47,012 bases of DNA from an uncultured Opitutia bacterium (GTDB taxonomy: Bacteria > Verrucomicrobiota > Verrucomicrobiia > Opitutales > UBA953): NCBI GenBank assembly GCA_903860195.1, contig CAIOPO010000036.1, positions 1 through 47,012 on the forward strand. Reading direction: 5' to 3'. Both the position numbers and the translations under genes were made by a program. Of the stretch, positions 14,003-16,463 are shown piece after piece (within the stretch, counting starts at the first letter, position 1; each line of letters begins with the position of its first letter). Under the pieces are notes generated by a model, which was not told the DNA's origin, ran no database searches, and saw only the letters and a list, made by a program, of their open reading frames with translations.

Positions 14003-14611
14003 ATGTCCGCGATGATCCCTTTCGACCCCGCCCTGCTCTCCCGGCCGGGCTGGATCTTCGACTGCGACGGCACCTTGGCCGCCTCGATGTGGATCCACCA
14101 CCGCAGCTGGACGCACATCGTGAGCAAGCAGCTCGGGCGCCCCTTCGACTTCCCTTGGCCGCTTTTCTGCTCCATGGGCGGCCTGTCGGCCGTCGACACC
14201 TGCAAGCGCCTCAAGGCCGAGTACGGCTTCGACCTCGACGTCGAGCGGCTGCTCGCCGACGGCCATGAATTCCTCGAGGAACACCTGGAGAAGGACGTCA
14301 CCGCCCGCGCCGAGGTCGTCGCCGTCGTGCACCATGTCCGCGGCCTCGGCCATCGGACGGCCGTGGCCTCCGCCGGCCGCAAGGCCCACGTGCACACGAC
14401 CCTCAACCGGATCGACGTCGCGCACCTCTTCGACGCGATCATCACCGCCGAGGACGTCGCGCGTTCGAAGCCGCACCCTGACCTCTTCCTGGCCGCGGCG
14501 GACCGCCTCGGGCTGAAGCCGGCCGACTGCGTCGTCATCGAAGACAGCCCGCGCGGCAAGGAGGCCGCCGACGCCGCCGGGATGCCGTGCATCTTGGTGG
14601 AGCCGGCATAG
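14003..14611 (+). CDS. HAD-superfamily phosphatase, beta-phosphoglucomutase-like subfamily IA
   Basis: A 202-aa protein starting 4 nt after ffh, so probably in the same transcript. HAD motif I is D20-C-D22-G-T, with Asp20 the nucleophile; motif II lies in VASAGRK (Ser); motif III Lys in RSKPHPD; motif IV in VIEDSPRG. The cap region (about residues 30-95) is helical as in phosphoglucomutase-like HAD enzymes. A phosphoglycolate- or sugar-phosphate phosphatase is plausible, but the substrate cannot be read from the sequence. Its stop lies 10 nt before the left inverted repeat of the four-helix-bundle cassette. Confidence 0.88.
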   Translation: MSAMIPFDPALLSRPGWIFDCDGTLAASMWIHHRSWTHIVSKQLGRPFDFPWPLFCSMGGLSAVDTCKRLKAEYGFDLDVERLLADGHEFLEEHLEKDVTARAEVVAVVHHVRGLGHRTAVASAGRKAHVHTTLNRIDVAHLFDAIITAEDVARSKPHPDLFLAAADRLGLKPADCVVIEDSPRGKEAADAAGMPCILVEPA

Positions 14612-14620
14612 GCCTACAGA

Positions 14621-14649
14621 GGGGGCACGTGGGCACGGTGACACGTGGA
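14621..14649 (+). repeat. Left 29-bp terminal inverted repeat of the four-helix-bundle cassette
   Basis: Starts GGGGGCACGTGGGCACGGTG and continues with ACACGTGGA. It contains two CACGTG palindromes flanking CACGGTG, so the arm is itself an internally repetitive array of CACG/CGTG units. It differs from the complement of the right arm at one base (G for A at the twelfth position). Confidence 0.9.
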
Positions 14650-14750
14650 TTTGGGGGAAGTTAGCAAAGGAATCCCTTAGCGCAGGATAGGGATTCAGTG
14701 TGCGATGAAAGCGGTGATTTGAATCCGCCCAAGACACAACATGGGCGGCG

Positions 14751-15149
14751 ATGAATGCCCCCAAGCCGCTCGGAAAGGTTAACTCCTATCGTGACCTCGT
14801 CGTCTGGCAGAAAGCGCGGTCGCTCGCGACCGAAGCCTATCGCCTATGCATGACCCCGTCCTTCGAACGACATCGCGGGCTTTCGGATCAGATCATGCGT
14901 TCGGCACTCTCGATCCCTTCGAACATCGCCGAAGGCGACGAACGAGGGACTAATAAAGACGCCCTGCGCTTCCTCCTGATCGCCCGAGGCTCACTCGCTG
15001 AACTCGAGACACAGCTGAGCATCGCCGAAGCCATCGGCATCATCCCCCGGCACATGGTGGGCCAAATAGCGGCGCAGCTTGACGAAGTCGCGCGCCTGCT
15101 GGGCGGCACCATCAAGATGCGTAAAGCAAGAGAGGATGAGGGAGAGTAA
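14751..15149 (+). CDS. Four-helix-bundle protein of the S23/intervening-sequence family
   Basis: A 132-aa protein with the family's hallmark segments: SYRDLVVWQKARSLATEAYR near the N-terminus, then LSDQIMRSALSIPSNIAEG and a third helix ALRFLLIARGSLAELETQL. The family was first known from open frames inside 23S rRNA intervening sequences and is structurally related to the Avd accessory proteins of diversity-generating retroelements; its members are basic and thought to bind nucleic acid. Here it is not in an rRNA gene and no reverse transcriptase is near. It is enclosed by inverted repeats; a 7-bp hairpin (AATCCCT/AGGGATT, 14671-14695) lies in its leader. The molecular role is unknown. Confidence 0.85.
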   Translation: MNAPKPLGKVNSYRDLVVWQKARSLATEAYRLCMTPSFERHRGLSDQIMRSALSIPSNIAEGDERGTNKDALRFLLIARGSLAELETQLSIAEAIGIIPRHMVGQIAAQLDEVARLLGGTIKMRKAREDEGE

Positions 15150-15181
15150 CCTCCTCCCTCATCCCCTTCATCTGCCCCGTG

Positions 15182-15210
15182 TCCACGTGTCACCGTGTCC
15201 ACGTGCCCCC
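15182..15210 (-). repeat. Right 29-bp terminal inverted repeat of the four-helix-bundle cassette
   Basis: Complement of the left arm at 28 of 29 positions, ending in ACGTGCCCCC. It lies 9 nt from the convergent aminotransferase stop, 32 nt after the four-helix-bundle stop. Confidence 0.9.
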
Positions 15211-15219
15211 TGACTGAAG

Positions 15220-16410
15220 TTACTTCTTCAGCTTGGCACAGAAACGAGCCAAGCGCTCGAGGCCCTGGGCGATCACCTTGTCAGAGGTCGCGTAGCTGAG
15301 GCGGATGTAGCCTTCGGAACCGAACGCGGAACCGGGGACGACGGCCATCAGTTCTTCCTCGAGGAGGCGATCGGCGAACTGCGCGGAGGTCAGGCCGAAG
15401 GACTTGATGTTCGGGAAGAGGTAGAAGGCGCCCTGCGAACGGTAGCAGGTCAGGCCGGGGATGGCGTTGAGGCCGGCGAGGAGGTTGAGGCGGCGCTTGT
15501 CGAAGACGGCTCCCATCTCGGCGAGGGAGGCCTTGGCCTTATCGGGGTGCTGGTGGACGGCGAGGGCGCCGAACTGGGCGAAGGTGGTGGCGTTGGATGA
15601 GATCTGGCTCTGCAGATCGGCCACGGCGGCGGCGAGGGCCTTGTCGGAGGCGACAAGGGTGCCGAGGCGCCAGCCGGTCATGGAGTAGCTCTTGGCGTAG
15701 CCGGAGACGGTGATGGTCAGGCGGGCGGCTTCGGGTGAGAAGGTCGCCGGGCTGCAGGTGGTCTGGCCGTCGTAGACGAGGTTCTCGTAGATCTCGTCGG
15801 ACATGATCCAGACATTGGCCTTCACGCAGATGGCCACCAGGGCCTCGAGCTCGGCGCGGGAATAGACGGCGCCGGTCGGATTGGACGGACTGTTGATGAT
15901 GACCATCCGCGTCCTCGGGGTCAGCGCGGCGGTCAGCTGGGCCGGGGTGATCTTGAAGCCGGTGACGTCCTCGGCGTTGACGAAGACGGGCTTGCCGCCC
16001 GCGAGCTTCACCATCTCGGGGTAGCTCACCCAATAGGGGGCGGGGATGACCACTTCGTCACCGGCGCTGATGGTGGCGAGGATGGCGAGGTAGCAGGACA
16101 TCTTGCCGCCCGGCGAGACGACGACGTTGGCGTCGGCTATGCCGGTAAAGCCGCGACGGGCGTAGTCTTCGGCGATGGCCTTGCGGAGGGCGGGGATGCC
16201 GGGCGTGGGAGCGTACTTGGTCTGTCCGTCGGCCAGGGCCTTGGCGCACGCGTCCTTGACGAACTGCGGCGTGTCGAAGTCGGGCTCACCCACGCCGAAA
16301 CCGACGACGTCCTTGCCCTCGGCCTTCAGCTTCTTGGCCTTCGCGTCCACGGCGAGGGTCGGAGAGGGGGCGACATTGCGGGCCCAGGAGGAGAGAGCGG
16401 GATTCGACAT
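15220..16410 (-). CDS. Class I aminotransferase, aspartate aminotransferase type
   Basis: A 396-aa PLP enzyme started at the ATG giving [13 protein letters not shown]; a TTG four codons earlier is less likely. The fold-type I signatures are NSPSNPTG (173-180), [11 protein letters not shown], and the PLP-binding lysine K240 in [15 protein letters not shown]; a C-terminal IRLSYA segment provides the carboxylate-binding Arg. Length and motifs fit the Igamma aspartate/prephenate aminotransferase group, which transfers amino groups between aspartate and 2-oxoglutarate or prephenate. Exact specificity is not determinable. A TTGCCA sits 41 nt upstream of the ATG in a -35 position. Confidence 0.92.
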
Positions 16411-16463
16411 GGCGGAAGCCAAGACGCAAAGGACTCCCGACTGATTGGCAAGACTGAGTAAAA

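Follow-up and report, generated by a model that had tools for sequence, protein, structure and literature searches.

The stretch of DNA analysed here (the window, 47,012 nucleotides) belongs to an assembly of 2.1 Mb in 209 contigs, whose relatives include contigs of the Opitutae bacteria BS6 and BS10. Between a HAD-family phosphatase gene on the plus strand (14003..14611; PF13419, E=4e-26), whose ortholog was found in 39 of the 55 genus genomes, and a convergent aspartate aminotransferase-like gene on the minus strand (15220..16422; PF00155, E=3e-73), we identified a cassette of 592 bp (14620-15211). It ends 8 bases from the stop codon of each neighbor (14609-14611 for the phosphatase, 15220-15222 for the aminotransferase), close to the 10 and 9 bases given in the preliminary description of this DNA. 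Its two ends, which together form inverted repeat I1, are arrays with an 8-bp period (AGGGGGCACGTGGGCACGGTGACACGTGGATTTGGGG): a left arm on the plus strand (14620..14656), G-rich when read inward, and a right arm with the array on the minus strand (15175..15211). The near-perfect inverted ends and the tandem arrays within them, both described previously, were recovered in our analysis, with 28 of the outer 29 nt complementary, and the repeat was found to reach 37 nt in each arm at 89% complementarity. We scored arms by the best local alignment of the 300 nt upstream with the reverse complement of the 300 nt downstream, and the cassette pair reaches 55 against a shuffle maximum of 27. The sole gene between the arms, as had been claimed, encodes an S23 four-helix-bundle protein of 132 amino acids (14751..15149, plus strand); it is preceded by a leader hairpin (GAATCCC...GGGATTC; 14670..14696, plus strand) obtained from the consensus fold of 11 orthologous leaders, and a second hairpin lies at its 3' end (15131..15167; inverted repeat I2). 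The G+C content also proved lower than that of the surroundings (59.6%, compared with 69.5% and 66.3% for the two flanking genes), as did the GC3 of the S23 gene (70% versus 94% and 90% in its neighbors).

The protein matches the profiles PF05635 (111 bits, cut-off 33.8) and TIGR02436 (110.5 bits, cut-off 24), both with E=4e-32, and its AF2 model (pLDDT 94) is a four-helix bundle with a TM of about 0.8 to the S23 structure 2GSC; 2RLD was also matched. The next structural match is Avd of the Bordetella phage retroelement (4DWL, TM 0.7), which has the same four-helix fold; the Avd protein of diversity-generating retroelements is a pentamer. At the profile level the similarity to Avd is weak (E=1e-3 to 6e-9), with 19.4 bits against a cut-off of 80 for NF033474, and, unlike in Avd systems, no reverse transcriptase lies beside the cassette's S23 gene. 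Since RVT_1 is absent from the cassette's genome and from 54 of the 55 genus genomes, a retroelement-like route that uses a reverse transcriptase in trans is unlikely in the genus and was rejected there. A diversity-generating retroelement was discarded as well, on the lack of RVT_1 in the cassette's genome and an Avd profile score under the cut-off. Profile searches of the S23 protein gave no match to a HUH nuclease or any other catalytic domain, carriage by phages was set aside because no S23 match occurred among 50,697 phage records, and a role as a defence system was dismissed for want of a PADLOC match. Strong purifying selection acts on the S23 protein at all tested sites, with a dN/dS of 0.08 among 10 orthologs of the cassette's protein and of 0.05-0.16 over all S23 sites tested. 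In-frame stop codons (TGA or TAG) interrupt a few S23 copies (G040:C12:3553-3867 and G016:C16:5419-5733), which may be decaying.

The second S23 gene of the same genome (L002) is enclosed by a 47-nt inverted repeat with a GTTGACAC-type unit, unlike the arms of the cassette, and its arms adjoin two convergent genes at their stop codons. Because the arms at this locus differ, we carried out a systematic arm test over S23 genes. Scores above the highest shuffle value (27) were obtained at 114 of 124 S23 loci in genomes of the same genus, family or order, which are not independent of one another, as the genus loci represent 94 genes at 24 sites; whether each S23 gene owns inverted repeats, a check suggested at the outset, can thus be answered in the affirmative for nearly all of them. 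The median score is 51.5 for own pairs and 19 for arms taken from different loci, and only 6 of 322 ordinary genes, taken as controls from the window itself and, in stretches of 20 kb, from relatives, score above 27. The pattern extends to the phylum, where 20 of 27 further S23 loci beat every shuffle, and to named genomes spanning Bacteroidota, Bacillota, Pseudomonadota, Planctomycetota, Acidobacteriota and others, where 54 of 77 S23 loci exceed the 99th percentile of the cross-locus scores. Most arm units are 7-8 nt long or multiples of this, with lengths of 11-12 and 6 nt also seen, and the upstream arm is G-rich, reading inward, in 109 of the 114 cases. The many unit lengths and sequences, together with this polarity, indicate that arm sequence is free to vary while the layout is kept: complementarity, tandem build and polarity are retained, and the unit itself is particular to a subfamily or genome. 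Inverted matched tandem arrays around S23 genes are a family-wide rule and not a curiosity. In a literature search that lay mostly outside subscription journals, we found no paper linking S23 genes with inverted tandem arrays except for the heptamers of the Coxiella intervening sequence. At four loci (L042, L112, L121 and L165), two nested pairs of inverted arrays, one outer and one inner, enclose the S23 gene.

These data bear on the possibility that the cassette is a neutral by-product, that is, a small gene that happens to lie in an intergene rich in repeats and whose arms are kept by replication slippage and palindrome template switching. Slippage would be expected to lengthen short tandem arrays, the intergenes of these genomes consist of mixed repeat modules, and at most sites the arm pairs of orthologs do not change in a consistently concerted way. 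However, the specificity of the arms to S23 genes relative to the 322 controls, and the way they recur in different phyla, keeping their polarity while the unit sequence takes many forms, make this origin very improbable. Fast concerted evolution of both arms was considered separately and set aside, as close orthologs gave no clear signal; own arm pairs win at the three sites with diverged orthologs.

When the entire cassette is folded as RNA, its arms pair (z = -8.7). Excision of the cassette from RNA, which the preliminary description had raised, may occur. The leader hairpin shows changes on both sides in 2 of its 10 pairs among the 11 orthologous leaders, with a weak covariation term. A consensus scan for a sigma-70-like promoter in the cassette leader found none. 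The arms were rejected as intrinsic terminators, as neither contains a terminator-like site; a single such site occurs within the cassette, namely the minus-strand hairpin at 15131-15167. Outside the genus, where S23 genes lie between codirectional genes, they are in the sense orientation by 52 to 2 in the named set, by 19 to 2 in the order and by 16 to 1 in the phylum, which is the pattern to be expected of an element acting in RNA. This bias is gone in the genus, where 11 of the 24 sites lie between convergent genes and the arms are farther from the gene. Read-through from host genes is therefore not a general route there, which suggests that S23 expression in the genus is independent of it.

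A genome search for the ends of the cassette showed that more copies exist: the arm motif matches at 32 places when up to 3 mismatches are allowed, and the reversed control at 0. Most of these copies begin no more than tens of bases away from a stop codon, and their G-rich strand is then the sense strand of that gene; a few are arranged as inverted pairs that are 170-330 bp apart and enclose no gene. Many arrays in the cassette's genome are found without S23, and arrays may be independent of it. The intergenes of this genome (L003-L032) are composed of repeat modules that often form nested inverted pairs, including runs of GGGCTGGGGCTGG, hairpins of the type GGTAGGGTCG...CGACC, and arrays of TAGAGGCTCGGAGGC and of GTTGACA. 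A genome of the same order (G067) has 517 overlapping matches to its arm unit GGCACAAA, compared with 0-1 in four other genomes, and several of its orphan arrays continue into the first codons of the L034 S23 gene. In BLAST searches of G067 with this gene, near-full copies turned up at two different sites, one further copy has an internal deletion, and about 20 others are truncated; this is the clearest sign of such an element spreading within a genome. In one Pseudoalteromonas genome, the unit TAGGTTC is likewise dispersed (80 matches versus 0-2 elsewhere). At three Pseudoalteromonas loci (L370, L372 and L373, in G095), TAGGTTC arrays enter nearly identical downstream sequence (TAGGCAAAGTGTACTTGTAGGAATGG), a larger dispersed repeat.

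Dispersal of this kind could also be produced by a mobile element acting at the DNA level, in which the arms would be terminal inverted repeats for a transposase supplied in trans, as in REP/RAYT systems, and S23 would be an accessory DNA-binding protein. S23 elements resemble REP/RAYT in having a single gene, their own genome-specific repeats and dispersed non-coding derivatives, and both the truncated G067 copies and the gene-free inverted pairs of the cassette's genome agree with it. REP sequences depend on RAYT proteins, and RAYT genes with palindromes of their own are indeed present in some relatives. Nevertheless, S23 repeats are short tandem arrays and not REP palindromes, no Y1 gene lies between the arms, and the search for a Y1 (HUH) transposase gave no match in the cassette's assembly and a patchy distribution in relatives, with several S23-carrying genomes lacking it. 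In addition, target duplication was not seen, and the strong sense bias outside the genus is unexpected of plain DNA transposition; we regard an element of this kind as unlikely. RAYT acting in trans was rejected as a specific candidate, given its absence from the cassette's genome, its patchy presence elsewhere and palindromes unlike the S23 arms. The Y1/RAYT genes found in the genus (L218 in G050 and L219 in G052) are flanked by GGGGTCAGACC palindromes, which differ from these arms.

To follow the history of the site, we compared the intergene between the phosphatase and aminotransferase genes across 30 genus genomes. The S23 cassette is present with identical borders in about 10 species, and it is scattered over the tree of the neighboring genes, which implies several losses or exchanges; a recent insertion at this locus was rejected on these two observations. 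The comparison, which had been suggested at the outset, also revealed sites lacking S23: the intergene of G019 has only 30 bp, with an 18-nt palindrome (AGGGGACACGTGTCCCCT) that corresponds to the two outer arm ends joined, and that of G005 is a 45-bp stub that keeps both outer arm ends. At a second site, genomes without S23 keep short inverted array stubs (L331 and L332). Such stubs are consistent with deletion between the arms, and it is also possible that they represent an older array into which S23 came later. Other relatives carry in the phosphatase-aminotransferase intergene HigBA-like toxin-antitoxin genes (named from translation), hairpins or a terminator, and this intergene resembles a hot spot of small cassettes. 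Other cargo at this position was seen at L068 (an unknown ORF), L075, L079, L081 and L087-L090, and paired hairpins (GGTAGGGGCAGCACCGCG) occur among the cargo of sister species.

Within the genus, the S23 clades track sites closely (94 genes, 24 sites), indicating that moves to new sites are rare, and mobility of S23 there is weakly supported. Multi-site relics are clear only in G067, and sites without S23 elsewhere keep arm stubs. At site 3 of the genus, a single gene pair, different S23 subclades are carried by different species (L129 and L165 versus L002), and each gene is flanked on both sides by an arm unit of its own, as though the entire cassette had been exchanged. It is important to note that these results divide the earlier proposal of a minimal mobile element: other copies and empty sites stand in its favor, while the shared borders mark the cassette as an old resident, and current mobility is not supported at this site. 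The opposite outcome that the preliminary description had envisaged, a cassette with the same borders in all relatives and no copies elsewhere, was not encountered as a whole: the borders are the same in about 10 species, but other copies and empty sites exist, and nearly every S23 gene has inverted repeats of its own.

The long residence of the cassette could also reflect a regulatory function, with the arrays acting as 3'-end or intergenic structures of the host (for example, mRNA stabilisers) and S23 as a host RNA-binding protein that reads them, the whole being immobile now. The position of most arrays of the cassette's genome a few tens of bases past stop codons, their G-rich strand in gene sense, the conservation of the protein (dN/dS near 0.1) and the fact that copies stay at their sites are in line with this explanation. 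The patchy presence of the cassette, its replacement by other cargo in sister species, the many genomes without S23, including the near-complete G041 with 0 S23 genes, and the truncated multi-copy relics in G067 are difficult to reconcile with it, and we consider it quite unlikely.

The intervening sequences of 23S rRNA (Coxiella, Leptospira, Brucella) share with S23 elements the S23 ORF, inverted complementary ends and sense insertion. In Coxiella, an intervening sequence of 428 nt holds the S23 ORF behind three or four tandem GACAGAT heptamers and is excised by RNase III, which cuts at the first heptamer (PMC4990558). These 5' heptamers are purine-rich in sense, as in S23 elements, whose median size is 574 nt, and both kinds are patchy across species. 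Unlike the 23S intervening sequences, S23 elements adjoin protein genes, have longer arms with a locus-specific unit, and are accompanied by dispersed arrays without S23. The cassette lies outside any 23S rRNA gene, between two protein genes, and the window holds one tRNA match only; no rRNA matched around either S23 copy of the cassette's genome, and none was found at the 78 named loci scanned (80 minus L221 and L222). The arms also resemble the heptamer arrays of Xanthomonas and Nostoc and the STRR repeats of cyanobacteria, which are G-rich 7-mers, intergenic and often convergently inverted. The Xanthomonas (GGGAATC) and Nostoc (GGGGA(T/C)T) arrays, with 70 convergent inverted pairs in X. 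campestris, have been reported with S23 unmentioned (PMC4692102). We found that two of three examined S23 genes on Nostocales plasmids sit between inverted (TAGGGAG)n and (CAGGGAA)n arrays.

These results provide evidence that the cassette belongs to a widespread group of minimal S23 elements, each composed of one S23 gene between inverted arrays of short units, with a unit particular to the subfamily or genome. Their architecture (an ORF, inverted heptamer-type arrays and sense placement) bears out the earlier suggestion of a free-standing relative of the 23S intervening sequences, and we infer that the two are counterparts. The anatomy shared with the Coxiella intervening sequence suggests a single class of which the 23S copies would be a special case. 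With a probability of roughly one half, we interpret the cassette itself as a free-standing element of the intervening-sequence type, old at its site and rarely moving, acting by way of a stem in its RNA and a pentamer of S23 that binds RNA. A pentameric state has been reported for the S23-family protein XCC0516 (PMC4990558). By analogy with intervening sequences and Avd, the element would be transcribed and its arms would pair into a long RNA stem, which double-strand-specific RNases such as RNase III may cut, and the S23 pentamer may bind the RNA of its own element, protecting or escorting it. Deletion between the arms, along with exchange of the whole intergene, would account for the loss or replacement of the element between species, and rare moves to new sites would follow a route needing no reverse transcriptase. 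The orphan arrays of a genome would be worn-down or non-coding derivatives of the element, as is observed in one relative and is presumed for the cassette's genome. In a wider reading, tentative but quite conceivable, a pan-bacterial class of non-catalytic elements would have S23 genes as its coding members, with an RNA-binding pentamer and inverted arrays whose unit varies between subfamilies while G-rich inward polarity and complementarity are kept; the orphan 7-8-nt arrays of many genomes, among them Xanthomonas and Nostoc, would be its non-coding derivatives, and the 23S intervening sequences a special case.

S23 proteins have been annotated across bacteria without a function, and the matched inverted arrays give the family a common anatomy. 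The arm rule links the 23S intervening sequences with free-standing elements and offers an origin for unexplained heptamer arrays in bacteria. It also prompts one to ask how such an element, having no catalytic gene, can persist and at times spread, and it makes the role of S23 testable, namely whether the protein recognizes the arms of its own element. The most useful result of our study is the family-wide rule of inverted arrays, together with their dispersed derivatives.
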